Translations under genes and position numbers: made by a program
Shown: piece after piece, positions 22,501-36,715 of the stretch
Numbering within the stretch: position 1 is the stretch's first letter
Layout: each line of letters opens with the position of its first letter
DNA from: Armatimonadota bacterium
Lineage (GTDB): Bacteria; Armatimonadota; Hebobacteria; GCA-020354555; CP070648
Assembly: GCA_035527535.1 (NCBI GenBank)
Contig: DATLAK010000113.1
Span: 1-58,941, forward strand
DNA length: 58,941 bases
Direction of reading: 5' to 3'
Notes under the pieces: model-generated
Seen by the model: the letters and a program-made list of their open reading frames with translations, nothing else
The model's database searches: none
Told to the model about the DNA's origin: nothing

Positions 22501-23289
22501 ATGAGCCTCGAACACGCCAACCTGTTGCATATCGCCATCGTTGGCGTCATCAGCGTCACCATCCTCATTACCATCCTCTCCGCGCGCGGCGGCCGGGACC
22601 TCTACATCCGCCGCATACCCGGTTTGTCGGCGATTGATGAAGCCGTCGGCCGCGCCACCGAGATGGGCCGCCCGATGCTGTTTTCGACCGGCCTCAGCTC
22701 CATTGACATCAACACCCTGCAGGCGCTCGTCATCGCCCAGCACGTCGCTCGGCTGGCCGCCCGCTACGGCAACCGGCTGATCGTGCCGGTGGTGGACCCG
22801 GTCGTGTTCGCCATCGCCGAGCAGCTCGTGCGCGAGGCATATGCCGTGGAGGGCAAGCCCGACGCCTTCCGCTCCGAGGACGTGCGCTTCCTTTCCGACC
22901 AGCAGTTCGCCTACGCGGCCGGCGTCATGGGCCTCATCAACCGCGAGAAGGTCGCCTCCACGTTCTTCTTCGGCTACTTCTACGCCGAGTCGCTGCTGCT
23001 GTCCGAGACCGGCCAGGAGGTGGGCGCGATCCAGATCGCCGGCACCCCGGCCACCACGCAGGTGCCCTTCTTTCTGGCATCGTGCGACTACACCATCATC
23101 GGCGACGAATACTATGCCGCCAGCGCGTATCTCACCCGCGAGCCGACGCTGCTGGGCAGTCTCGTCGGCCAGGATATCGGCAAAGGGCTGCTGCTGCTGC
23201 TGGTCGTGGCGGGCACCCTGACCGCGGTTCCCGGCACGCCGCTGCACTTCGTCAACCAGTGGCTCGCGCGCTGGCTGTTCGGGGGGTGA
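22501..23289 (+). CDS. DUF6754 membrane-anchored protein
   Basis: This 262-residue protein has an N-terminal helix (LLHIAIVGVISVTILITIL), a central alpha/beta domain and a C-terminal helix near residues 225-245 (LLLLLVVAGTLTAVPG). The central part contains MLFSTGLSSIDINTLQAL, RLIVPVVDPVVFAIAEQ and QVGAIQIAGTPATTQVPFFLASCDYTIIGDEYYA, which I match to DUF6754. No active site has been described. It is the only member of the cluster with a recognised family and is therefore its best marker. Confidence 0.7.
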   Translation: MSLEHANLLHIAIVGVISVTILITILSARGGRDLYIRRIPGLSAIDEAVGRATEMGRPMLFSTGLSSIDINTLQALVIAQHVARLAARYGNRLIVPVVDPVVFAIAEQLVREAYAVEGKPDAFRSEDVRFLSDQQFAYAAGVMGLINREKVASTFFFGYFYAESLLLSETGQEVGAIQIAGTPATTQVPFFLASCDYTIIGDEYYAASAYLTREPTLLGSLVGQDIGKGLLLLLVVAGTLTAVPGTPLHFVNQWLARWLFGG

Positions 23290-23304: not shown

Positions 23305-24249
23305 ATGCGAACCCGCAAGTGGACAATAGTCGTCACCATATACGTGATGGGCGGGCTCATCGGGGCGGTCGCCTGGTGGGCGTTGGTGCAGGCGCTGAGC
23401 CCCATCTTCAGGCCCGTCGAGGGCGGCGCATTCTACGGCGCGGTGAGCGCGTCGGTGCTGCTGTGGGCGGCCGTCATGTACCTGCTGCACCGGCTGCCGG
23501 CGTCGGTGAAGAAGCGCGTGGTGGTGTTCATGACCTTCGTCGCGGGCCTCTTCTACACGCTCGAGTTCTACCTGCCCGAGAAGAGCGCCATCTTCTTCTG
23601 GCGCCCCAGTCACACCAATCCCTTCACCCCGATGCTGGATCCCGTCGGCGCGGCCACCTCGGTGATCTTCGGCTTCACCTTCTTCCTCGGCGCCTTCAGC
23701 CTCTCGCTGGTTCACGGCAAGCATATCGCTGCGCGGCGTCCGGGCTACTACAACAGCATCGCGTTCTTCGTCGCCTTCGCCGCGATGGCGGCATTCGGCC
23801 TGTGGCAGGCATACGCGCCTAAGGCGATCCTGGTGCACGACCACTGGGGGCTGCGGAACCTCTCGGTGCGGCAAGTGTACGACTACCTGTTCATCAGCAC
23901 CTACGTGCCGTTGGGGGCGGCCCTATTCTCGGTGCTGGCGTTCTACATGGCGACCGCGGCGTTTCGCGCATTTCGCGTGCGCTCGGCGGAGGCGGGTTTC
24001 ATGATGGTCGCCGCATTCATCTGCATGTTGGGGCAGGTTCCGCTCGGAATGTGGGTCACCCACCACCTGCCGATGACCGGCCCGCTGTCGCACCTGCGCA
24101 CGGAGGCGATAGCCAACTGGATCCTCGGCGTCTTCAGCATGGCGGGCCTGCGCGCGGTCGGCTTCGGCATCCTCGTGGGCGGCCTCGCCATGTCGCTGCG
24201 CCTGTGGCTCAACCTCGAGCGCGGCGCCTTCTTCGAGCAGGAGCTATAG
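23305..24249 (+). CDS. Polytopic membrane protein, unknown
   Basis: This 314-residue protein has about eight hydrophobic helices spread over its whole length and little soluble mass. Charged loops include PEKSAIFFWRPSHTNPFTP and KAILVHDHWGLRNLSVRQVY, and MWVTHHLPMTGPLSHLRTE contains conserved-looking histidines. It follows the DUF6754 gene by 15 bp. A channel or scaffold role is possible; no transporter family is recognised. Confidence 0.6.
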   Translation: MRTRKWTIVVTIYVMGGLIGAVAWWALVQALSPIFRPVEGGAFYGAVSASVLLWAAVMYLLHRLPASVKKRVVVFMTFVAGLFYTLEFYLPEKSAIFFWRPSHTNPFTPMLDPVGAATSVIFGFTFFLGAFSLSLVHGKHIAARRPGYYNSIAFFVAFAAMAAFGLWQAYAPKAILVHDHWGLRNLSVRQVYDYLFISTYVPLGAALFSVLAFYMATAAFRAFRVRSAEAGFMMVAAFICMLGQVPLGMWVTHHLPMTGPLSHLRTEAIANWILGVFSMAGLRAVGFGILVGGLAMSLRLWLNLERGAFFEQEL

Positions 24250-25095
24250 TTGGGGCGTGATTCACAATTCTGGTCCCGCCGCGTGATCTGGCTGGCGCTG
24301 GCGATCGCGACCGCCGCCTTTCTGCTGGTCAAGGTCAAGGCGGTCATGTACGTCAGCAAGCCGGCGCGCGACATCTACGATGCGATCGAGGCGGTGCCGG
24401 CGAGCAAGCTCATTGTAATCTCGTGCAGCTGGGCGCCGGGCACCATCGGCGAGAACGGCCCCCAAACCGAGGCCCTCATTCGCCACTGCTTCAAGGCCGG
24501 CAAGCGCTTTGCCATCTTCGGCTTCGTTGATCCCGCCGGCCCCGGCCTCGGCCAGGCCATCGCCGAGCGCTGCCAGGCACAATACGGCCGCCGCTATGGC
24601 CGCGACTGGGTCAACTGGGGCTTCAACATCGGCGGCATTCCCATGATCCGCGGCTGGGCGAAGAATATCCCCGGCACCATCAAGCGGGACATCTTTCGCA
24701 AGCCGATCACCTCGCGCCCCGTCATGGCCGGCATCAAGACCGTGCGCGACATCGGGCTGGTGATCGAGATCACCCCCAGCCTGAGCCTGCAAACGTGGGT
24801 GGACTTCATCTATGGCATCTACCGCACACCCATCGCCTACGCCTGCACCGGCGTCATGGGGCCGGAGGCGTTTCCCTTCTATGACGCCCACCAGATCGTC
24901 GGCGTGCTCAAAGGTCTGGCAGGAGCGGCCGAGTACGAGCAACTGATGGGCTATGAAGGCGACGCCCTCAAGCGCATGCCCGCGCAGTCATCGGCCCATG
25001 CGGTGGTCATCGCCCTCATCGTGCTCGGCAATATCCTCTACCTCCGCGCGCGGCGGCGGGGCGAGGCTCCGGAGCGGAGGCTCGGCGGCTCATGA
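24250..25095 (+). CDS. Bitopic protein with alpha/beta domain, unknown
   Basis: This 281-residue protein starts at TTG 24250, directly after the previous stop. It has one helix at each end (VIWLALAIATAAFLLVKV; HAVVIALIVLGNILYLRA). Between them is an alpha/beta domain with LIVISCSWAPGTIGENGPQ, RFAIFGFVDPAGPGLGQAIA, NWGFNIGGIPMIRGWAKNIP and LVIEITPSLSLQTWVDFIYG. The layout (helix, Rossmann-like domain, helix) parallels the DUF6754 protein two genes upstream, so the two may be distant relatives or partners. No known family. Confidence 0.6.
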   Translation: MGRDSQFWSRRVIWLALAIATAAFLLVKVKAVMYVSKPARDIYDAIEAVPASKLIVISCSWAPGTIGENGPQTEALIRHCFKAGKRFAIFGFVDPAGPGLGQAIAERCQAQYGRRYGRDWVNWGFNIGGIPMIRGWAKNIPGTIKRDIFRKPITSRPVMAGIKTVRDIGLVIEITPSLSLQTWVDFIYGIYRTPIAYACTGVMGPEAFPFYDAHQIVGVLKGLAGAAEYEQLMGYEGDALKRMPAQSSAHAVVIALIVLGNILYLRARRRGEAPERRLGGS

Positions 25096-25802
25096 GGTCT
25101 CCTTTGCTGCGCCTGCTCATGTGGCTGGGCGTGTTCGGGGCGGGCGCCTACTTCGGCATCCGCCACCACGTCTTCGCCGGCACCCTCGCCGTGTGGCTTT
25201 CCGCCATCGCCACTCTCGCCATCTACTCCATTCTCTACCGCGAGAACGTGGTGTTTCGTTTCTTCGAGCATGTTTTGGTCGGCCTGGCGACCGGCTACGG
25301 CTTCTATATCGTTATCACCCAGGTGCTCGAGCCCAAGTGGTGGAATCCTCTGGCCCTCGAACACAAGTGGTACTGGGTCTTCGCCCTGCTGGTGGCGGCG
25401 ATGTTCTACACCGTGTACTCCAAGCGCTGGTCGTGGATGAACCGGCTCGCGGTGGGGACCTTCATCGGACTGGCCGCCGGCTACGGCATGGTCGGCTTCG
25501 TCACCGAGCTCGCGCCCCAGCTCAAGGCCTCGTTCAAGCCGTTGTGGAGCCACAGCGCCCCCTATGTGCAAGCCAACAGCCTGCTCTTCTTCATCACCAT
25601 CATCACCGTCATGAGCTACTTCTTCTTCTCCTTCGAACAGCGTCACCCCGTGGTCAAGGGCAGCACGCGCCTGGGCCGCTGGCTGCTCATGGTCGCCTTC
25701 GGCGCCATCTTCGGCAACACCGTCATGGGCCGCATGTCCCTGCTCATTGACCGCCTCGAGTTCCTGCTCCACCACTGGCTGCGCATCTTCGGCGGCGCCT
25801 GA
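25092..25802 (+). CDS. Polytopic membrane protein, unknown
   Basis: This 236-residue protein has about six transmembrane helices, including LLMWLGVFGAGAYFGI, TLAVWLSAIATLAIYSILY and FGAIFGNTVMGRMSLLIDRL. The ATG overlaps the end of the preceding gene by 4 bp (ATGA), so translation is coupled. It is the last gene of the cluster. Aromatic-rich loops such as EPKWWNPLALEHKWYWVF are distinctive. No family recognised. Confidence 0.6.
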   Translation: MRSPLLRLLMWLGVFGAGAYFGIRHHVFAGTLAVWLSAIATLAIYSILYRENVVFRFFEHVLVGLATGYGFYIVITQVLEPKWWNPLALEHKWYWVFALLVAAMFYTVYSKRWSWMNRLAVGTFIGLAAGYGMVGFVTELAPQLKASFKPLWSHSAPYVQANSLLFFITIITVMSYFFFSFEQRHPVVKGSTRLGRWLLMVAFGAIFGNTVMGRMSLLIDRLEFLLHHWLRIFGGA

Positions 25803-26081
25803 GCAGCACCGCCCGCCGCCCCGCCGGGGCGCACAAGCAGCCTAAAGGCTTGACTCGCGACGCCCCCCTGGGGCAAGCTGTCTCCGCCGCGACCCTTCCG
25901 CCCCGCGTCGGATCAGCGTCACACCGCACCGCGGGCCCGCCCGCGCCGACGCCGACGCTCGGGGGATGGTTGGGCAGGACTTGACCGGCGCTGCGGACAA
26001 GAAGGGCCGCCAACCTCGCCGCGGGTTGTGCCCGCCGTTCGCGCACGGATGGAGGGCTCCGCGGGCGACGGGAGATCAAGC
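25803..26081. other. Gap after the membrane cluster
   Basis: This 279-bp stretch holds a CGCCCC-GCC-GGGGCG hairpin near 25816-25831 and a small CAGCCTAAAGGCTTG palindrome near 25838, both of the type seen in other gaps. I see no convincing promoter for the fusion gene that follows: a TTGACC near 25980 has no matching -10. Confidence 0.4.
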
Positions 26082-28406
26082 ATGCAGGGCGATTGGACCT
26101 ACGGCGACACCGATGACAGAATCGCCGAGGACTTGCGACTCCGCCTGCCGGAGCGGATGCTCGATGCCCACGCGCACCTCTACCGGCGCGCCAGCCTGAA
26201 GGTATCGCCGCCCGACCTGTGGACGACGGGGCCCGAGGTCGCCACTGCGCAGGTATGGCGGGAGCACGTCGGCCGGCAGGTGGGGGAGGGTCGCCTGGTG
26301 GGGGCGCTGTTCGCGGGCATACCGACGGTGGCGCAGCTGGCGAGCCTGGCACGCGAGAACTCCTTCGTCCTGGAGCAGTGCGAGACGCTTCCCCACAGCC
26401 GCGGGCTGGTCATCATCTCCCCCGACTGGTCGCCCGCCACCGTGGCCGCATGTCTCGATCACCCCCAGTTCGCGGGTTTCAAGCCCTACCACACGCTCAG
26501 TAAGGAGACGCCGACTTTCGACGCGGCACTGGGCGCCTACCTGCCGCAGTGGGCCTGGGAGCTGGCGGACGAGCGCGGCCTCGTCATCCTGGTGCACCTG
26601 GTAAGGAGCCGCGCCCTGGCCGACCCCGACAACGCGCGCGAGCTGCGCGAGCACTGCCTTAAGTACCCGCGGGCCAAGGTGCTGCTGGCCCATGCCGCGC
26701 GCGGCTTTCATGCGCCCAACACGGTGCAGGGGCTGCCCGCCTTGCGGGGGCTGGAGAACGTGTGGTTCGACAGCTCCGGAATCTGCGAGGCGACCGCGCT
26801 CGCGGCCATCCTCACCGAGTTCGGCCCGCGCCGGCTGCTGTGGGGCAGCGATTTCCCGGTGTCCGAAATTCGCGGCCGCTGCGTGACCTTGGGCGACGGC
26901 TTCGCGTGGCTGCAGCACGACACGCTGGTGTGGGACAAGCTGATCCCCTCGTGCGAGCCCATCCTGGCGGGGCTGGAATCCCTGCGCGCACTGGCAGAGG
27001 CGGCAGACGATTTGGGCCTCAATGCAGCGGACCTTCAGGACATCTTCGCCGACAACGCCTTGCGCCTGCTCGGGTTGAAGCAGCAGTCTCGCGCCGTCAC
27101 CCAGGACCTTTATCGCCACGCCAAGCAGCGCCTCCCCGGCGGCACCCAGCTCGTGAGCAAGCGCCCGGAGATGATGGCGCCCGAGCAGTGGCCCGCCTAT
27201 TTCCGCGAGGCGCGCGGCTGCGAGACATGGGACCTCGACGGCCGCCGCTACTACGACATGTCCACCAACAGCGTCGGGGCGTGCCTGCTGGGCTTCCGCG
27301 ACCCCGAGGTCACGCGCGCGGTGCGGCGGCGCATCAACCTGGGCAGCATGTCCTCCCTCAACCCGCCGGAGGAGGTGGAGCTCGCCGACCTGCTGTGCGA
27401 GATTCACCCCTGGGCCGAGCAGGTGCGTTTCGCCCGCTGCGGCGGCGAAAGCTGCGCCATGGCGGCGCGCATCGCCCGCGCCACCACCGGCCGCTCGCTC
27501 ATCGCCGTCTGCGGCTATAGCGGATGGCACGACTGGTATCTCGCCGCCAACCTGGGCGAGACCGATGCCCTGCGAGGACATCTGCTGCCGGGACTGTCTC
27601 CCACGGGCGTCCCCGCCGAGCTGCGCGGCACCACCTTGACCTTCAGATACAATCAGCGCGAGGACCTGCAGGCGATCCTCGATGCGCACGGCGACCGGCT
27701 GGCGGCGGTGATCATGGAGCCCTGTCGCCACGCCGACCCGGAGCCGGGATTCCTGGAGTTCGTGCGGGAGAGCGCACACCGCGCGGGGGCGCTGCTGGTT
27801 TTCGACGAGATCAGCATCGGCTGGCGCCTGCACTTCGGCGGCGCTCACCTGCGCTTGGGGGTCAACCCGGATGCGGCCATCTTCGCCAAGGCCTTGGGCA
27901 ATGGCCACCCCATCGGCGCGGTTATCGGCACCCGCGAAGCGATGGCGGGCGCTCACGAGTCGTTCATCAGCAGCACCTACTGGACCGAGGGCGTCGGCCC
28001 GGCGGCAGCGCTGGCGACCGTGCACAAGCTGCGGCAGGTAGACGCGCCGGCGCATGTGGCGCGCGTCGGCGGCCAGGTGCAGGCGCTCTGGCGGGCCCAT
28101 GCCGACAAGCACCGCCTGCCGGTAACGGTGGACGGCGGCTACCCGTGCCTGGCCCGGTTCGCCTTCGACCACGAGCTGGCCCCGGAGCTGCGCACCCTCT
28201 ACACGCAGCTCATGCTGGAGCGGGGCTTTCTGGCGGGAACGAGCATCTACCCGACGCTGGCGCATACGGATGAAATCGTCGGGCTTTACGGCGAGGCCAT
28301 AGATGAGGTGTTCGCCGAGATCGCGGCCGCCCTGACGACGGGGGAGGTCAAGGCCCGGCTCAAGGGCCCGGTGGCGCACAGCGTCTTTTCGCGTTTGGTG
28401 GACTAG
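26082..28406 (+). CDS. Amidohydrolase - class III aminotransferase fusion
   Basis: This 774-residue protein joins two enzymes. Residues about 1-350 are an amidohydrolase-2 domain: DAHAHL with H30 and H32, VLLAHAARG, LLWGSDFP with the catalytic aspartate. Residues about 355-774 are a PLP aminotransferase of the glutamate-1-semialdehyde aminomutase type: LPGGTQLVSKRPE, the D575 motif VFDEISIGWR and the PLP lysine K603 in IFAKALGNGHPIGAVIG. ATG 26082 follows GGGAGATC. The two activities would act in sequence: ring or ester opening, then amino transfer, on a sugar-derived acid perhaps. The pairing is unfamiliar to me, and neighbours suggest sugar catabolism. Confidence 0.85.
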   Translation: MQGDWTYGDTDDRIAEDLRLRLPERMLDAHAHLYRRASLKVSPPDLWTTGPEVATAQVWREHVGRQVGEGRLVGALFAGIPTVAQLASLARENSFVLEQCETLPHSRGLVIISPDWSPATVAACLDHPQFAGFKPYHTLSKETPTFDAALGAYLPQWAWELADERGLVILVHLVRSRALADPDNARELREHCLKYPRAKVLLAHAARGFHAPNTVQGLPALRGLENVWFDSSGICEATALAAILTEFGPRRLLWGSDFPVSEIRGRCVTLGDGFAWLQHDTLVWDKLIPSCEPILAGLESLRALAEAADDLGLNAADLQDIFADNALRLLGLKQQSRAVTQDLYRHAKQRLPGGTQLVSKRPEMMAPEQWPAYFREARGCETWDLDGRRYYDMSTNSVGACLLGFRDPEVTRAVRRRINLGSMSSLNPPEEVELADLLCEIHPWAEQVRFARCGGESCAMAARIARATTGRSLIAVCGYSGWHDWYLAANLGETDALRGHLLPGLSPTGVPAELRGTTLTFRYNQREDLQAILDAHGDRLAAVIMEPCRHADPEPGFLEFVRESAHRAGALLVFDEISIGWRLHFGGAHLRLGVNPDAAIFAKALGNGHPIGAVIGTREAMAGAHESFISSTYWTEGVGPAAALATVHKLRQVDAPAHVARVGGQVQALWRAHADKHRLPVTVDGGYPCLARFAFDHELAPELRTLYTQLMLERGFLAGTSIYPTLAHTDEIVGLYGEAIDEVFAEIAAALTTGEVKARLKGPVAHSVFSRLVD

Positions 28407-28487: not shown

Positions 28488-29459
28488 ATGTCGGCGACCG
28501 CGAAACCCTGGTTGGAGCGCGAGCACATCCGCCTGGCCATGCTGGGCATGGTGGACGGCAACGGACATCCCTACTCTTGGAGCGCCATCTTCAACGGCTA
28601 CGATCCGGGGGAGATGGCGAAGTGCCCCTACCCGGCCATCGCCGCCTACTTGGGCAAGCAACCCAAGGACACGCTTCAGATCCCCGGCGCCCGGGTGACT
28701 CACGTTTGGACCGATGACCCGGCGCAGGCCCCGCTGGTGGCGAAGGCGTCGCTCATCCCCAACATCGCCGCGCGCCCGCAGGACGTGATCGGGCAGGTGG
28801 ACGCGGTCATCATCGCCACCGACAAGGGCCACGAGCACGTGGCGCGGTGCCGGCCATTCGTGGAGGCCGGTCTGCCGATCTTCGTGGACAAACCGCTGGT
28901 GGACAACGAGCAGGACCTGGCGACCTTCAGCGAGTGGGTGGCACAGGGCGCGCCCATCATGTCGTCGAGCTGCATGCGCTACTGCAAGGAGTATATGCCG
29001 TACCGAGTCTCCACCCATGAGTTGGGAGCGCTCAGATTCGCGTGTATCACCATGGCCAAGACCTGGGAGCGCTACGGCATCCACGCCCTGGAGGGGATCT
29101 ACCCCATTTTCGGGCCGGGGTTCATCTCGGCGCGCAATGCCGGGACCCGCGACCGCAATATCGTACATCTCAAACACCACCGTGGCGCGGACGCGGTGGT
29201 GGCGAGCATCGGCGACATGCTCGGCGCCTTCGGGGCGCTGCAGTTGTGCGGCACCGCCGGCCACGCGCAGGTCACCGCCGGTGACACGTTCCATTCCTTC
29301 AAGGCGCAGCTAGCGGCCTTTATCGAGTACCTGCGTACAGGTGAGCTCCCGTTTCCGTTCGCGGAGACCCAGGAGCTGATGAAGCTCGTCATCGCCGGCA
29401 TCCGCAGCCGCGAGGAAGGCGGGCGCGAGGTGGGGCTGGCCGAAATTATGCCGGCGTAG
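28488..29459 (+). CDS. Gfo/Idh/MocA-like oxidoreductase
   Basis: This 323-residue protein resembles NAD(P)-dependent sugar dehydrogenases. It has VDAVIIATDKGHEHVARCRPF, then IFVDKPLVDNEQDL (a DKP version of the EKP catalytic motif) and a C-terminal GTAGHAQVTAGDTFHSFK domain. The N-terminal nucleotide loop (RLAMLGMVDGNGHPYSWSAI) departs from the usual GxGxxG and includes an expanded insert before THVWTDD, as in a subset of family members. It lies 81 bp after the fusion gene with a GGAGA ribosome site. Likely oxidises or epimerises the pathway sugar. Confidence 0.78.
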   Translation: MSATAKPWLEREHIRLAMLGMVDGNGHPYSWSAIFNGYDPGEMAKCPYPAIAAYLGKQPKDTLQIPGARVTHVWTDDPAQAPLVAKASLIPNIAARPQDVIGQVDAVIIATDKGHEHVARCRPFVEAGLPIFVDKPLVDNEQDLATFSEWVAQGAPIMSSSCMRYCKEYMPYRVSTHELGALRFACITMAKTWERYGIHALEGIYPIFGPGFISARNAGTRDRNIVHLKHHRGADAVVASIGDMLGAFGALQLCGTAGHAQVTAGDTFHSFKAQLAAFIEYLRTGELPFPFAETQELMKLVIAGIRSREEGGREVGLAEIMPA

Positions 29460-29482: not shown

Positions 29483-30277
29483 ATGTCCGAGGCGATTCCG
29501 CTCCGTATGCGCCCCAGCCGCGTCCTGCGCAAGCTGCGCGCGGGCGAGGTGGTGAGCTGCTTCAAGGTCAACTTCGCCGACGCGCGGCCGGTGGAGATCG
29601 TGGGCCTGGCCGGCTTCGACTGCGTGTGGGCGGATCTGGAGCACATCGCCAACGACTGGTCGCTGATAGAGAAGCAGGTCTGGGCGGCCAAGGCCTACGA
29701 TCTCGACGTGGTCGTGCGGGTGGCGCGCGGCAGCTACAGCGACTACGTGCGGCCGTTGGAACTGGACGCGGCGGGGATCATGGTGCCGCACGTCATGAGC
29801 CTGGCGGACGCCCGGCAAGTGGTGCGGATGACTCGCTTCCACCCGCTCGGGCGCCGGCCGGTTGACGGCGGCAACGCCGATGGCGCGTACTGCAACCTCG
29901 ACCTCGCCGACTACATGCGCCAAGCCAACGAGCAGCGCTTCGTGGCGGTTCAGATCGAGGACCCCGAGCCCCTGGCTGATCTGGAGGCCATCGCCGCAGT
30001 GGAGGGGATTGACATCATCTTCTTCGGCCCCGGCGACTTCAGCCAGGGCATCGGCGCGCCCGGGCAGTGGGACCACCCCCTGATCGCGGAAACTCGCCGG
30101 CGGATCGCGCGAGTGTGCCAAGGTGAGGGTAAGATCGCCGGCACACCCGGCACGCCGGCCACCCTGCGCGAGCTGGTTGACATGGGTTACCGGTTCGTCA
30201 CCATGGGCGCGGACGTGCTCGGCCTGAGCGCGTACTGCAAGGGGCTGGCAGCGGAGTTCGGCAAGCTGAGCAGGTGA
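29483..30277 (+). CDS. HpcH/HpaI-type aldolase
   Basis: This 264-residue class II aldolase has GFDCVWADLEH, the metal-site VAVQIEDPEPLADLEAI and FFGPGDFSQGIG, all hallmarks of the HpcH/HpaI (2-keto-3-deoxy-sugar acid aldolase / citrate lyase beta) family. It would split a 2-keto-3-deoxy acid into pyruvate and an aldehyde. The start follows GCAAGGAGG. Its last 27 bases fall in the 80-bp repeat that recurs at 33657, and its TGA overlaps a GTG that originally started the SDR gene, now found 3.4 kb away. Confidence 0.85.
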   Translation: MSEAIPLRMRPSRVLRKLRAGEVVSCFKVNFADARPVEIVGLAGFDCVWADLEHIANDWSLIEKQVWAAKAYDLDVVVRVARGSYSDYVRPLELDAAGIMVPHVMSLADARQVVRMTRFHPLGRRPVDGGNADGAYCNLDLADYMRQANEQRFVAVQIEDPEPLADLEAIAAVEGIDIIFFGPGDFSQGIGAPGQWDHPLIAETRRRIARVCQGEGKIAGTPGTPATLRELVDMGYRFVTMGADVLGLSAYCKGLAAEFGKLSR

Positions 30278-30330: not shown

Positions 30331-30468
30331 GCGTCACTGCGAGCTGTTTGCGGCGGCCCGCACCCACAGCAGCCGGCCGGAGAGGTCGGTGGAGATCTCA
30401 ACCGGACAAGCGATGTCAACGTCTTCGCCGGTCAAGACATCCGTCGTCTGCAATGCCGCCGGCGGTAG
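30274..30468 (+). pseudogene. Truncated 5' copy of the SDR gene
   Basis: The frame starts like the intact SDR gene at 33689 (FSLAGKVALV) but loses homology right after GKVALV, where the inserted DNA begins, and reads into antisense of the glycosidase gene until a stop at 30468. The ribosome site is altered (GAGCAGG against GAGGAGG). It is a leftover of the duplication and is not expected to be functional. Confidence 0.8.
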
Positions 30469-33351
30469 GCCCATCGCGGGCCGATCGAGTTGCAGCGAGA
30501 CATCCAATTTCTGCTCCAGCCACACAGCCAAGGGCGGATGCCAGGTGGCGATTGCCAGCAGGGCGCCGTTCGATGGATGGCAGAAGGCGGTCACCAGTGT
30601 CTCGGGGCGATCCACGACCACGGCGGCCGGCCGTTGCCACCATCCGCACATTCGCGCGTCTTTGATCCCGAAGCGGTCGAAAAATCGCCACAGCGCCTGC
30701 TGGCGGTCAGTGCCCGCCCCCCAGCCCATGCGCGGCCAAATGCCGAACAGCATTCCGCGGGCGAAGTACTGCTCCTTCGACAGCATCTCCGAGGGCACGC
30801 CAAAGGGCACCCCCGAGATCTCCACCAACCACGCCCAGGGGTCGAAAGCATCGTAGGGGAAACCTTCGCCGTGCCAGATGCTATCGGTGAAAGGTAGGCA
30901 CAACATGTAGGTCGTGATGGGCGAATCAAGCAACGTGTCGCCGTGATGCGCGTCGATCGTCGCCGCGGGCTGCGTCTCCTGGAAGATGGTCCACAGTCGC
31001 TTGGCCATCTCGCGGTGCGCCAGCGTCGAACCGTCGGCGCCGTCCCAATACGCGCCATCGGTGCCGAAGTGCCGCGTCATGTAGCGCATGGCCTCGAGAT
31101 AGAAGTTTCCAGTGCGCTTATCATTAGCCATCCCCACCGTGTGCTCGTTGCCCAGGTCGCGGTGCAAGCGCGGCCAGCCCGGGGGCAATCCGTCGGGCAG
31201 GTGATTCTCATGCCAGGCATCCTGGAAGCGCAACCGCGGGTTCGGGTCATCCGCATCGGGAAACCGAAAACCTTCATATACCAACGCCCAAAACTCGGGC
31301 GCCAGCGTGGACAATTCACGCCCCGAGTTGTAGACCTTGACCAAGATGCCGCGCTTGTGCGCCTCCGCCGTCAGCCGTGACAGGTTGTCCGGTCCCTCCC
31401 ACTGCCAGGGGTAGTTGAACGCCGGTCCCCACCAATCATGCAAGTTAAGGCGCTTGACTCCCAACGACTTTACTTCATCAAGCCGCAGGCAGTTGTCGCG
31501 CAGATAGCTCTGCGGGGTGTCCTCATCAGAAGGCTCGAATCCCCCGCCCCGGTGCAGGTAGCGGAAATCCCAATGACGCGGGTCCGGTGGTTTCACCGGA
31601 GTCGGGCGCAATGCGAACGTCATTTGCCACGTCGCTGCCGGCCCCAGGTCGTGCGCGCCCAGGTTCAGGCGCAGCACGACCTCGTCGTCGTTCTCAGTGA
31701 CGGTGGCGGCATCCACCCGTGATACGTCCTGCCACGGAACCGTGTCCCACGTCATCCAGCCCAGCCCCGCGTCCACGGATCCCAGCCACAAGTCAGGGGT
31801 GAAGCATTCCGCGTGGCGCGCGATCTTACGCCAAGCGCGATCACCATCCCGCCGCCCCCGGTAACCCATGCCGGACGCCAGCTCGGCGTGCCGTCTGCGC
31901 CATGACACACTGAGCGCCAGATCGCTCACCGCGCAAAGATCCTTGGCATCAAGCCGCAGCGTGATCACCGCGCAACCATCGAACTCCATCCAGCCGTCAA
32001 CGGCGAGCTTCAGCGCACCAGCGTTGGCAGCGCCGCGCCAGGCGACTCGCGCGTCGGTCGCCTGCGTGATCTCGAACGCGCCGTCATGCAGCGCCAACTG
32101 CGCGCCGCCACAATTGCCGGTGAGCGTGATCGGCGCGGCCAGGATGTCCTCGCCCCCGCAGGTGAGCCTCTCCGGCAGGCCGCAGGCATTGAGTGCCAAA
32201 GTATGCCCCCAGGTGGATATGGCTCGCCCCTCCTGCGAGATCCGCAGCGGAGCGAAGGGCGGATAGACCCCTCCCGACAGCCCGATGCTGCTGTCGAGCC
32301 AACGCAAACGGCTGAGCCGCCAAAGCTCGTGATCCCCCTGGTCCGCAACCACGGCCTCGGATATCCGCAAGCGGATGGGCACGCTGGTCGCGGGCAAACC
32401 CGCAGGTTGCACCGTGACCGCCCCGGTGTACGCGCCGCCGGCGGCATCTTCAGGGATATCCACGCCGAACCACAGCGCCCGCACCTGTCCTTTCGGCAGT
32501 GCGAACGGGCCCGCGGGATTCCGCACGTAGGCCGCCTTGCTCCTCGACTCCAAGGTCAGGCACTGGATGCGCGCGCCCGGGATCACGCCGTGTTCGGAGC
32601 GCAGATCAGTGCAGGTGACCGTGAGGTCCGGCGCGCCCTGCCGACACGCCCAGATGCCAAGCTCGAAGACGCGATACTCGTTGCGGTCCGCGGCGAGCTC
32701 GATTTCAGTTCGGGGACCTTGTCGCGCCCAGTGCGCTGGGATCTCCAGGTTGAGTTTGATGGGGTGGTCCCGGTCCTCGGGGAACACCAGGTAAGAAGCG
32801 CATGGAAAGCGCGCCAGCAGATCGTCAACCTCCGACTTGAGCGCAATCGTCTCCATCGGATAGAAGCTGTCGAGCGCGCAGCGCGCCTCGATACGCTTCG
32901 CTGCCGCCGCAACTGGCGCGACGCTCGTCTCGGCGGCTAGCAGCCACGACCGCGACGGCTCGAAGAAAGCGGGCTCCGCCGCGCCGTAGTACAGATGATA
33001 TACTCCGGGGCCGGCCACGGGCCGGAACTCGATGACTACGCGCTCCTGATCGTAGTGCAGCAGGCGCGCGTCGGCGATCTCTTCCTTGGTCGCGGCGCTG
33101 AGAAGCTTGAGGCCTTTCATGCGAATGGAGCGGCTGGACCTGCGCCAGACCGCTTCGCCGCGCGCCACGTCGCCCGCCCGGCTCACTGCGAAGACTATCC
33201 GGCACGGCCAGATGTTCCAGTTGAACAACTTGCGGCGGCCGGGTTTGTCGCCGCCCCAGGCGATCTCCGCCCACCGCTTCTCGCCCGAGCGCTGCTGATC
33301 CACGGGCCAGGCGTCCATTTCGGCTTGTGAAACGACTACGTGCTCAAGCAT
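30334..33351 (-). CDS. Glycoside hydrolase-like protein (DUF6067-type)
   Basis: This 1005-residue protein shows N-terminal beta-sandwich regions, then WLGSVDAGLGWMTWDTVPWQ and a catalytic-barrel part with RLNLHDWWGPAFNYPW, DGAYWDGADG and ATIDAHHGDT, ending in a beta domain. This architecture matches the DUF6067/GH123-related proteins common in polysaccharide-degrading lineages. Acidic residues of DGAYWDGAD could be catalytic. No signal peptide is visible. It runs opposite to the operon around it, its stop is 4 bp from the repeat edge, and it lies wholly within the inserted segment. Confidence 0.65.
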   Translation of the reverse strand: MLEHVVVSQAEMDAWPVDQQRSGEKRWAEIAWGGDKPGRRKLFNWNIWPCRIVFAVSRAGDVARGEAVWRRSSRSIRMKGLKLLSAATKEEIADARLLHYDQERVVIEFRPVAGPGVYHLYYGAAEPAFFEPSRSWLLAAETSVAPVAAAAKRIEARCALDSFYPMETIALKSEVDDLLARFPCASYLVFPEDRDHPIKLNLEIPAHWARQGPRTEIELAADRNEYRVFELGIWACRQGAPDLTVTCTDLRSEHGVIPGARIQCLTLESRSKAAYVRNPAGPFALPKGQVRALWFGVDIPEDAAGGAYTGAVTVQPAGLPATSVPIRLRISEAVVADQGDHELWRLSRLRWLDSSIGLSGGVYPPFAPLRISQEGRAISTWGHTLALNACGLPERLTCGGEDILAAPITLTGNCGGAQLALHDGAFEITQATDARVAWRGAANAGALKLAVDGWMEFDGCAVITLRLDAKDLCAVSDLALSVSWRRRHAELASGMGYRGRRDGDRAWRKIARHAECFTPDLWLGSVDAGLGWMTWDTVPWQDVSRVDAATVTENDDEVVLRLNLGAHDLGPAATWQMTFALRPTPVKPPDPRHWDFRYLHRGGGFEPSDEDTPQSYLRDNCLRLDEVKSLGVKRLNLHDWWGPAFNYPWQWEGPDNLSRLTAEAHKRGILVKVYNSGRELSTLAPEFWALVYEGFRFPDADDPNPRLRFQDAWHENHLPDGLPPGWPRLHRDLGNEHTVGMANDKRTGNFYLEAMRYMTRHFGTDGAYWDGADGSTLAHREMAKRLWTIFQETQPAATIDAHHGDTLLDSPITTYMLCLPFTDSIWHGEGFPYDAFDPWAWLVEISGVPFGVPSEMLSKEQYFARGMLFGIWPRMGWGAGTDRQQALWRFFDRFGIKDARMCGWWQRPAAVVVDRPETLVTAFCHPSNGALLAIATWHPPLAVWLEQKLDVSLQLDRPAMGLPPAALQTTDVLTGEDVDIACPVEISTDLSGRLLWVRAAANSSQ

Positions 33352-33656: not shown

Positions 33657-33736
33657 GCGGAGTTCGGCAAGCTGAGGAGGTGACGACGATGGGCGTGCTC
33701 GATCGGTTTTCTCTCGCGGGCAAGGTGGCGCTGGTC
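33657..33736 (+). repeat. 80-bp direct repeat, copy 2
   Basis: The second copy of the aldolase/SDR junction, 3406 bp after the first. It contains the functional SDR start with the intact GAGGAGG ribosome site. Confidence 0.95.
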
Positions 33737-34474
33737 ACGGGCGGCGCCGGGCTCTACGGCCGCCAGATCGTGGCCGCGATAGCGGAGGCGGGCGCGCGCA
33801 CCTTCATCGCCTCGCGCAACCTGGAGGCCCTGGAGAAGGTCGCGGCCGAGCACCGCAAGGCGGGCGCCGACGTCACCGCTCTGCAATACGACCAGGGCGA
33901 CGAGGGCTCCATCCTTGCCTTGCGGGACGAGCTCATGCGCCGCGCCGGCCGCATTGACGTGCTGGTCAACAACGCCGTCACCCGCCCCATGAAAGCGGGT
34001 TACCTTGACGACGCCTCCACCTTCGCCGAGAGCATGCGCGTCAATGCCACCGGCCTCTTCGTCATCACCCGCGCGTTCGGCGACATCATGGCCGAGCAGC
34101 GCGCCGGCTCCATCATCAACATCAGCTCGATCTACGGTGTGGTCGGCCCCGACCCCACCAACTACCGCGGCACCGACATGAGTGGCTGGGGCGCGGACTA
34201 CTGCTTCCACAAGGCGGGAATGATCAACTTCACGCGCCTGGTTGGCAGCTACTACGGCCCTCGCGGGGTAAGGTGCAACTGCGTCTGCCCCGGCGGCCTG
34301 CGCAGCCCCACGCAGCCGGAAACCTTCGTCCGCCAGTACGGCGACCACACCTTCCTGGGGCGGCTGGCCGACGACACCGACCTCATGGGCGTCATCGTCT
34401 TTCTCGCCTCCGATGCCTCACTCTATGTCACCGGCGCCAACATCATGGTGGATGGTGGCTACACGGCGAAATAG
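33689..34474 (+). CDS. SDR-family oxidoreductase
   Basis: This 261-residue short-chain dehydrogenase has the NAD(P)-binding TGGAGLYG near residue 17, LVNNAV, the serine in INISSIYG, and the catalytic YCFHK (YxxxK). The stretch between serine and tyrosine is longer than usual (VVGPDPTNYRGTDMSGWGAD), as in gluconate 5-dehydrogenase-like relatives. ATG 33689 has ideal spacing from GAGGAGG; GTG 33680 is also in frame. It directly abuts the aldo/keto reductase gene. It probably oxidises or reduces a keto-sugar acid feeding the aldolase. Confidence 0.88.
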   Translation: MGVLDRFSLAGKVALVTGGAGLYGRQIVAAIAEAGARTFIASRNLEALEKVAAEHRKAGADVTALQYDQGDEGSILALRDELMRRAGRIDVLVNNAVTRPMKAGYLDDASTFAESMRVNATGLFVITRAFGDIMAEQRAGSIINISSIYGVVGPDPTNYRGTDMSGWGADYCFHKAGMINFTRLVGSYYGPRGVRCNCVCPGGLRSPTQPETFVRQYGDHTFLGRLADDTDLMGVIVFLASDASLYVTGANIMVDGGYTAK

Positions 34475-35398
34475 ATGCTCACCGCGCGACTTGACGACCT
34501 GGCCCTCTCCCGGCTCATGCTGGGCACGGTTCAACTCGGCATGCCCTACGGCATCGCCAACCGCGCCGGGCAGCCATCCTACGAGGTCGCTCGCGACATC
34601 ATCGCCTGCGCTTATGAGGGCGGCGTAACCTGCTTCGACACCGCGGCAGCCTACGGCGCGAGCGAGCAGGTTCTGGGTCAGGCGCTAGCGGAGCTCGGCC
34701 TCGCCGACCGGATGACGGTGGCCACCAAGATCCGCCCGGTCGAGGATCGGACCTTCTCCGACGCAGCGGCGCGGGAGAAGATCGAGGGGTCGGTAGCCGG
34801 CTCCCTGCGGGCGCTGCGGCTGGAGGCGCTGCCGCTGTGCCTGTTCCACCGCGAGCATGATTTCCGCTGCATCGAGCACCTGCTCCGGCTGAAGGAGAAG
34901 GGGCTGGTGCGGCACGTTGGCGCGTCGGTCATGACGCCAAAGGCAACCGCCGCCATCATCGGCTCGGGCCTGGCGGAGGCGGTGCAGCTGCCGGCCAGCC
35001 TGCTCGATCACCGTTTTGCGCGCGCGGGGATCCTGACCGAGGCGCGGCGCCGTGGGGTGGCGGTCTTCGCGCGCAGCATCTACTTGCAGGGGTCGCTGCT
35101 GATGTCGGAGCGGGAGATTCCGTCCTGCCTGGAGGCCGCAATCCCCGTGCGCCGCGAGCTGGAGGCCTTGGCGCGCGAGGCCGGCATGAGCCTGGCGGAG
35201 CTGGCTGCGCGTTACGTTCTCAGCCTCGACGGGGTCACCTGCGTCGTGATCGGTATGGAGTCCGTCGAGCAACTGCGCGAGAACCTGACGCTGATCGAGC
35301 GCGGCCCGCTCGCCCCCGCTCTTTGCGCCGCTATCGGCAGGGCGGTGCCCGAGCTGCCGGACGACCTGCTGATGCCCAACCGATGGCAGAACGTCTGA
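34475..35398 (+). CDS. Aldo/keto reductase
   Basis: This 307-residue (alpha/beta)8 enzyme has LMLGTVQLGMPYG at the N-terminus, GVTCFDTAAAYGASE containing the catalytic Asp and Tyr, MTVATKI with the lysine, and a C-terminal VVIGMESVEQLRENL NADPH site. The catalytic histidine position reads LFHREHDF. It resembles the sugar-nucleotide/inositol-type AKRs found in catabolic operons. The ATG follows the SDR stop without a gap. It would handle an aldehyde or keto sugar from the same pathway. Confidence 0.85.
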   Translation: MLTARLDDLALSRLMLGTVQLGMPYGIANRAGQPSYEVARDIIACAYEGGVTCFDTAAAYGASEQVLGQALAELGLADRMTVATKIRPVEDRTFSDAAAREKIEGSVAGSLRALRLEALPLCLFHREHDFRCIEHLLRLKEKGLVRHVGASVMTPKATAAIIGSGLAEAVQLPASLLDHRFARAGILTEARRRGVAVFARSIYLQGSLLMSEREIPSCLEAAIPVRRELEALAREAGMSLAELAARYVLSLDGVTCVVIGMESVEQLRENLTLIERGPLAPALCAAIGRAVPELPDDLLMPNRWQNV

Positions 35399-35530
35399 GC
35401 GGGCGCGCCGACGCCCACCGCCGGGAACCGGCGCGCGGAGCCCGGATCATTCATATGCGCTCGGATCCGATGCAGAGTGCAAATGCCCCGGCTAGCGGTC
35501 CGGCGGTGCCCGGGGGGAAAGGCGGCCATC

Positions 35531-36715
35531 ATGCGCGGCGCGCAGGGCAGCCTGGTGATTCGCAATGGGGCGGTCTTGCCGCCCGCCGGGGAACCGGCGC
35601 GGACTGACGTGCTGATCGAGGGCGGGGGTATCCGCGAGATCGCCCCCGGCCTACAAGCCAAAACCGTAATTGATGCTGCCGGCGCCTATGTGCTGCCGGG
35701 GATAATTGACCTGCACATGCACGGGATGTGCCGCGAATCCCTCGAGCAGGGCGCCCTGCTCGACTTCGCCCGCCTCGAGGCCGAGCGGGGGGCCACCACC
35801 TTCTTTCCCGGCTTCTTCGGTGCGCCCCAGGCGACGGCGGAGCTCATGGCTCGCCACCGCCGCGAGACGAACGAGCTGCGGGACGTGCCCCAGGTGGGCG
35901 GGTTCCGCCTCGAGTCGCCCTACCTCGCCAATACCGGCGCCGGAGTGAGCGACGACCTGGCGCCCATAACCAGTGGCACTACCGAGACCTTGCTCGAGGC
36001 CGGCGGCGACCATATCAGGATCTGGGACATCTCGCCCGAGCTGCCGGGAGCCCCTGACGCCATCCGCCGGCTGGCGGGCCGCGGCATCCTCTGCAGCATC
36101 GCCCACACCGGGTGCACCGTCCGGCAGGCCCGGGCCGCCGTGGACGCCGGCGCCGGATTGGTGACCCATTTCTATGACGTGTTTCCGCTGCCCGACCTCA
36201 CCGACCCCGATCCGGGGGTGTACCCGTCCGGCCTCACCGACTACCTGCTGATCGAGGACCGCGTCGGGTGCGAGATTATCGGCGACGGCACCCACGTCCA
36301 TCCCCATCTGGTTGAGATCACGCTGCGCTGCAAGACGCCCGCCAGGGTTGCATTCGTCACCGACAGCAACTACGGCGCGGGCCTGCCGCCGGGGCGCTAC
36401 ACGACCCCCAGGTGGGGCGATATCGTCGTTGACGGCCCCAATCACGGCGTACGCCTGGCGGATCGCGGCATGGGACTGGCGGGCAGCGCCCTGACGCCGA
36501 TTGATAGCCTCCGCAATGCCGTGCGCCTGTTCGGCAAGGACCTCGCCACTGCCAGCCGCCTGTGCTCGACCACGCCCGCCCGCCTGATGGGCCTCAACAA
36601 GGGCGAGATCGCGGTGGGCAGGGACGCCGACCTCATCATTCTGTCCCCGGAGCTGGAGCTGCTGCACACCATCGTTGCCGGCCGGGTCGCGTACAGCCGG
36701 AGCGGGGACGAATGA
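35531..36715 (+). CDS. nagA: NagA-like N-acetylglucosamine-6-phosphate deacetylase
   Basis: This 394-residue amidohydrolase shows VLPGIIDLHMHG (HxH), FRLESPYLA in place of the EGP metal ligand, CSIAHTGCT, THFYDVFPLP (NagA THLFNAM), IGDGTHVHP and the catalytic aspartate in FVTDSNYG. It ends with GEIAVGRDADLIILSPE. It likely removes an acyl group from an amino sugar phosphate. The changes in several motifs suggest a modified substrate. ATG 35531 fits the family. Coupled by ATGA to the next short frame. Confidence 0.8.
   Translation: MRGAQGSLVIRNGAVLPPAGEPARTDVLIEGGGIREIAPGLQAKTVIDAAGAYVLPGIIDLHMHGMCRESLEQGALLDFARLEAERGATTFFPGFFGAPQATAELMARHRRETNELRDVPQVGGFRLESPYLANTGAGVSDDLAPITSGTTETLLEAGGDHIRIWDISPELPGAPDAIRRLAGRGILCSIAHTGCTVRQARAAVDAGAGLVTHFYDVFPLPDLTDPDPGVYPSGLTDYLLIEDRVGCEIIGDGTHVHPHLVEITLRCKTPARVAFVTDSNYGAGLPPGRYTTPRWGDIVVDGPNHGVRLADRGMGLAGSALTPIDSLRNAVRLFGKDLATASRLCSTTPARLMGLNKGEIAVGRDADLIILSPELELLHTIVAGRVAYSRSGDE

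Follow-up and report, generated by a model that had tools for sequence, protein, structure and literature searches.

A conserved amidohydrolase-PLP enzyme fusion with a probable role in (amino-)sugar breakdown recurs in at least five bacterial phyla

The window analysed here, a stretch of 58,941 nucleotides from an Armatimonadota bacterium (contig DATLAK010000113.1), contains a gene whose product joins an amidohydrolase domain to a class-III PLP enzyme domain, followed by a cluster of oxidoreductase, aldolase and hydrolase genes (Table 1). The longest frame at this site begins with GTG 26028 (792 aa); ATG 26082 has GGGAG just 5′ of it and coincides with the starts of the relatives. A frameshift or assembly artefact is excluded, because full-length relatives with 50-69 % identity occur in many genomes, and the ORF 26082-28406 is a real, conserved two-domain protein that is as yet uncharacterised. 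A 767-aa antisense ORF (26076-28379, minus strand) is taken as a by-product of high GC content; in such DNA, simple ORF picking preferred some antisense ORFs, and the loci were re-read by tblastn. Upstream of the fusion, positions 22501-23289 encode a DUF6754 protein, which is followed by co-oriented ORFs (23305-25802), all of them unrelated to the pathway discussed below as far as seen.

Table 1. The fusion gene, its domains and the neighbouring genes of the window
Feature	Position	Strand	Evidence or remark
Amidohydrolase-PLP fusion, 774 aa	26082..28406	+	Pfam domains, catalytic residues, AlphaFold2 model
Amidohydro_2 domain, residues 28-332	26163..27077	+	Invariant H30, H32, K134, H172, H204, D257
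Class-III Aminotran_3 domain, residues 371-667	27192..28082	+	D575 and K603 at the aligned positions of the PLP-binding Asp and Lys in GSA aminomutase
Divergent Gfo/Idh oxidoreductase (GfoW)	28488..29459	+	Orthologues (55-79 % identity) beside the pair in 11/44 genomes
HpcH/HpaI-type 2-keto-3-deoxy acid aldolase	29483..30277	+	12 loci (window counted) have a homologue near the pair
GH123-type glycoside hydrolase	30334..33351	-	Between the two halves of the cluster, on the opposite strand; pathway membership only conjectural
SDR dehydrogenase	33680..34474	+	Recurs in 14 loci of the family
Aldo/keto reductase (AKR)	34475..35398	+	Recurs in 8 loci of the family
NagA-like amidohydrolase	35477..36715	+	164 bits against NagA (TIGR00221), below the cut-off of 225.65

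The first-pass annotation had described a fusion of an amidohydrolase with a PLP enzyme in which both halves keep their catalytic residues, and the residues on which it relied, H30, H32, D575 and K603, are exactly where it placed them; H172, H204 and D257 are present as well. Both domains exceed their Pfam cut-offs, Amidohydro_2 (PF04909) with E 1.6e-16 and 61.3 bits against 26.4, and Aminotran_3 (PF00202) with E 5.1e-32 and 111.5 bits against 30.5, while neither half passes any NCBIfam cut-off. The alignments of the relatives contain many invariant residues in both halves, and the six amidohydrolase residues of Table 1 are the same in all 19 amidohydrolase domains compared. An AlphaFold2 model of the whole chain has a pLDDT of 91.4 and a pTM of 0.85, and the N-terminal half modelled by itself has a pLDDT of 89.7. 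By sequence and model, this half belongs to PF04909, with a predicted TIM barrel and a putative metal site formed by HxH, His, His and Asp, and it represents a divergent subfamily that has no NCBIfam match. In structure comparison its model pairs, at low identity, with hydrolases, lactonases and decarboxylases of PF04909, a PDC hydrolase and a COG3618 enzyme being among the nearest; profile comparison with characterised lactonases gives weak local matches alone (4dlf, E 4.5e-5; 2ffi, E 0.0013).

The structures matched by the C-terminal half are GSA aminomutase, PctV and FumI, and amino-sugar aminotransferases are among the nearest. It shares with HemL and other class-III aminotransferases (PF00202) the fold (TMt 0.83-0.90 to GSAM and FumI) and the positions of the catalytic Lys and Asp, but it differs from HemL in being fused to an amidohydrolase and in lying in a catabolic neighbourhood. 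Its earlier description as glutamate-semialdehyde-aminomutase-like thus stands as a statement of homology but not as an assignment to HemL; a HemL role was rejected, the half scoring 166.6 bits where TIGR00713 requires 527.3, and the genome's true hemL, a separate gene, reaching 605.8 bits. The best NCBIfam model, PRK06209/NF004856 ('glutamate-1-semialdehyde 2,1-aminomutase'), which is without an amidohydrolase domain, gives 225.2 bits against a cut-off of 486. Since the true hemL lies elsewhere in the genome, automatic naming of the PLP half as glutamate-1-semialdehyde aminomutase would mislead.

A search for the same fusion, which the first-pass annotation had proposed, recovered fused copies in about 43 genomes from at least five phyla, phylum labels being taken from the named contigs that served as search centres. 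Within the phylum of the window, about 13 of 291 genomes have fused copies, some of them split by contig ends or a frameshift. Full-length fusions occur in 17/392 genomes of Planctomycetota, whose carriers include single-contig genomes, in 3/68 of Hydrogenedentota and in 8/388 of the phylum of a Kiritimatiellae MAG (L011), and there are further full-length relatives in named Planctomycetota MAGs and one Spirochaetales bin. Some genomes retain one half alone. In trees that cover the first set of relatives, made before the larger set from Planctomycetota, Hydrogenedentota and the Kiritimatiellae phylum, the fused PLP halves form a single clade (99/95) within which the PLP-only proteins L011, L012, L014, L069 and L070 are nested, and the amidohydrolase-only proteins L075, L077 and L078 are likewise nested among the fused amidohydrolases. 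The simplest reading of these sequences would be a single ancient fusion, followed by one or more losses of either half in places and by horizontal transfer. A break in the fusion gene of the nearest relative (G001; L062 and L063) was dismissed as an assembly effect, since the sequences at two scaffold-gap ends overlap within the gene by 129 identical bp. Another contig (L068:3-222) starts with unrelated sequence joined to the last residues of the amidohydrolase, and is probably chimeric at this end.

That the two halves are functionally linked, as had been claimed, is borne out by a Rosetta-stone comparison: where the pair is not fused, four loci of the Kiritimatiellae phylum (L202, L206, L208 and L209) have a separate Amidohydro_2 gene that immediately precedes the PLP gene, co-oriented with it and in the order seen in the fusion. 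The two of these amidohydrolases that were compared have 24-26 % identity to the window domain, and all four keep the six invariant residues. Another locus (L201) has a further Amidohydro_2 gene 3′ of its PLP gene. Separate, unlinked domains amid unrelated neighbours, the arrangement named in advance as speaking against such a link, were found only for some amidohydrolase-only copies of Hydrogenedentota. Six genomes of that phylum carry amidohydrolase-only and PLP-only copies on different contigs, and no module neighbours were found for the amidohydrolase-only genes; PLP-only copies in several of the same genomes keep theirs.

The Gfo/Idh, aldolase, SDR and AKR genes, to which the first-pass annotation had also drawn attention, do recur with the pair in other phyla, the NagA-like gene less often. 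Over all loci, the top four recurrent neighbour families are those of the window's own genes, namely SDR (14), HpcH (12), Gfo/Idh (10) and AKR (8), and the HpcH homologues have at least 40 % identity in nine loci besides the window. GfoW, with a mean of 0.9 copies per genome, would be expected to adjoin the pair in about 0.13 of the 44 genomes, against the 11 observed (p ~1e-18). Of the 12 genomes with GfoW in the window's phylum, 7 also have the fusion clade, against 0.66 expected (p 2e-7); both p-values are optimistic, as kinship among genomes is ignored and the genomes were partly picked for clusters already observed. Copy number per genome was adopted as the null model instead of comparison with 15 paralogue loci, a small control against which a Fisher test of single neighbours gave no significant result. 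In L201, GfoW, HpcH, SDR, AKR, BNR, PLP and amidohydrolase genes form a one-strand run, and GfoW genes distant from the pair are often still grouped with HpcH, SDR and AKR. In four loci (L009, L212, L213 and L214), a DHDPS-family gene, non-homologous to HpcH, and two small genes (c10 and c5) take the place of HpcH; L212 is an amidohydrolase-only copy that adjoins AKR, SDR and DHDPS. The c5 and c10 proteins, of ~145-160 aa (L009:10886-11814, L212:10479-11503, L213:10111-11016 and L214:4917-5830), had no Pfam match and no credible match in the PDB. A NagA-like relative with 62 % identity lies in the GfoW-HpcH-SDR-AKR cluster of L223, from another phylum, and weaker ones lie near the module in L228, L204 and L208. 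Many fusion loci, notably those of Planctomycetota, have no module genes within ~8 kb, and others have few. Frequent companions of the pair include sodium symporters (SSF) or MFS transporters and BNR-repeat, sialidase-like proteins. Sialic-acid catabolism, at which the BNR, NanM-like and DHDPS neighbours hint, was considered and set aside: BNR families occur widely, true sialidases were matched only weakly, and a NanA/NanK/NanE set did not turn up. MTTB-type or URO-D-type methyltransferase-like genes also occur with the module (L191:5284-6792, L196:4219-5646 and L222:6503-7891, and also L063, L068, L197 and L224), a hint that some lineages use a methylated substrate. In L227 (3802-8494), HpcH, SDR, histidinol-dehydrogenase-like and SDR genes stand beside GfoW, and the divergent fusion of the same genome is ~33 kb away.

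Taken together, the fused and adjacent-separate arrangements and the recurrent neighbours make it highly probable (about 0.9) that the pair works together in the pathway of this operon. The fusion very probably carries out two linked steps, probably consecutive ones, in the breakdown of an (amino-)sugar by a route as yet uncharacterised; we infer the reactions, their order and the substrate as follows. The route would be conserved, oxidative and non-phosphorylating, with an (N-acyl) amino sugar or a sugar acid related to it as substrate. The SDR, AKR and/or Gfo/Idh dehydrogenases would oxidise the sugar to a lactone, the amidohydrolase domain would release a free 2-amino aldonic acid by opening the lactone (or by removing an acyl group), the PLP domain, as an ammonia-lyase, would eliminate the beta-hydroxyl and ammonia to leave a 2-keto-3-deoxy acid, and the HpcH/HpaI (or DHDPS-type) aldolase would cleave this acid into pyruvate and an aldehyde. 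A 2-keto-3-deoxy acid as common intermediate would account for the exchange of HpcH for the non-homologous DHDPS. The scan of the neighbours revealed no dehydratase of the enolase or IlvD type, and the PLP enzyme is nearly always there. If the sugar is a 2-amino one, elimination of the beta-hydroxyl and ammonia by this enzyme would supply the same 2-keto-3-deoxy acid. This specific sequence of lactone opening or deacylation, PLP ammonia-lyase and aldolase is a tentative proposal, which we hold to be true with odds of somewhat over one in three. It is weakened by the fusion loci with few or no module neighbours, by the neighbour-less amidohydrolase-only genes of Hydrogenedentota and by the genomes with one half; moreover, no single substrate is indicated, and the BNR, URO-D/MTTB and histidinol-dehydrogenase-like neighbours would fit other substrates too. 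The pair, which recurs with its operon in at least five phyla, lies at the centre of a catabolic gene set that makes the proposal directly testable; two probably consecutive steps are indicated by the fusion itself and candidate upstream and downstream enzymes by the operon, so that in vitro reconstitution is possible.

Among known systems, oxidative routes of the L-fucose type combine the same kinds of enzyme: dehydrogenases, a hydrolase of PF04909 and an aldolase for 2-keto-3-deoxy acids. There a lactonase of this superfamily acts between dehydrogenase and dehydratase. The window amidohydrolase resembles the COG3618 lactonases (L-fucono-1,5-lactonase and PDC hydrolase; PF04909) in its fold, its HxH...H...D motif and its proposed place in the pathway, after the sugar dehydrogenase and before the 2-keto-3-deoxy acid aldolase; it differs in having no more than 21 % identity to the matched structures, an invariant K134 on strand 4, a fused PLP domain and an operon without a dehydratase. 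L-fucono-1,5-lactonase is assigned to COG3618 (Hobbs 2013, as cited in PMC13406643). No deacylase precedent was found among the structurally matched PF04909 enzymes, the matches being lactonases and decarboxylases, which counts against deacylation. A functional precedent exists in oxidative chitin catabolism, where a metal amidohydrolase, OngB, acts ahead of a PLP deaminase, OngC, on N-acetylglucosaminic acid (PMC9537276). The order of chemistry is alike, in that Ong has a deacylating metal hydrolase followed by a PLP enzyme that deaminates an amino-sugar acid and so yields KDG, and the SSS-family importer of that cluster, OngIT, parallels the sodium symporters near several copies of the fusion family. 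However, OngB is a relative of D-aminoacylase and OngC is of the D-amino-acid-deaminase type, which places them apart from the PF04909 and PF00202 halves of the window protein, and the Ong system has separate genes and a KDG kinase instead of HpcH. For the PLP step there is PbfA, a class-III 'transaminase' that acts as an ammonia-lyase (PMC8154272); like the window protein it is a class-III 'aminotransferase' in a catabolic operon, but its substrate is a phosphonate and it is not fused. Because the PLP half reaches only 86.9 bits against the PbfA model (NF049939, cut-off 525), which leaves it outside that family, the case for lyase chemistry is one of pathway logic. Should the PLP half prove to be a lyase, the few known class-III lyases would gain a member, and a new route for nitrogen-containing glycans would be defined. 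Each of the two domain families is already known, whereas the fusion and its operon appear to be undescribed, no published description of the fusion having been found in the literature searched. The boldest reading, and a somewhat improbable one, is an undescribed non-phosphorylating amino-sugar pathway that is widespread in uncultured and PVC-type bacteria. In it a single fused protein would open (or deacylate) the amino-sugar lactone and then, by class-III PLP chemistry, deaminate and dehydrate the product, taking the place of the metal-dependent sugar-acid dehydratase of the usual route.

A true transaminase in the same operon is about as probable as an ammonia-lyase. It would follow a lactonase or amide hydrolase and either transfer the amine of an amino sugar (acid) to a keto acid or aminate a keto-sugar acid, and HpcH would act on the product or in a side branch; we would grant this scheme roughly a third of the weight. 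Most class-III fold-type-I enzymes are transaminases, the closest structural matches are GSA aminomutase, PctV and amino-sugar aminotransferases, and the operon evidence is identical to that for the ammonia-lyase. What transamination leaves unexplained is the missing sugar-acid dehydratase of the cluster and the interchange of two kinds of pyruvate aldolase, for both of which the ammonia-lyase scheme would account.

Less probable are readings in which the substrate, the direction or the very link between the halves is otherwise. The order of hydrolase and PLP enzyme might be kept on another class of substrate (a sulfonated or methylated sugar, or a cyclitol) with different chemistry, an unlikely option that draws on the MTTB/URO-D-type genes in L063, L068, L191, L196, L197 and L222 and on the histidinol-dehydrogenase-like gene in L227; these are minority companions, however, and GfoW, HpcH, SDR and AKR are the most constant set. 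An incidental fusion of halves with unrelated jobs is very improbable: amidohydrolase-only and PLP-only descendants do exist, and lie on different contigs in the six Hydrogenedentota genomes, but the operon is common to fused, adjacent-separate and one amidohydrolase-only copy, and both halves are rich in invariant residues. Also improbable, though less so, is a biosynthetic enzyme that makes an amino sugar acid for surface glycans, as its stand-alone sister PLP proteins beside cytidylyltransferase genes may do. No cytidylyltransferase was found next to a fused copy, and both the fused and the close PLP-only copies accompany aldolases, importers and glycan-degrading or sialidase-like proteins. 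The sister proteins themselves (L079:7169-7966 and L080:3518-4321), with 46-48 % identity to the window PLP half, adjoin CTP_transf_3 cytidylyltransferase genes, an arrangement suggesting a CMP-activated amino-ulosonic acid route.
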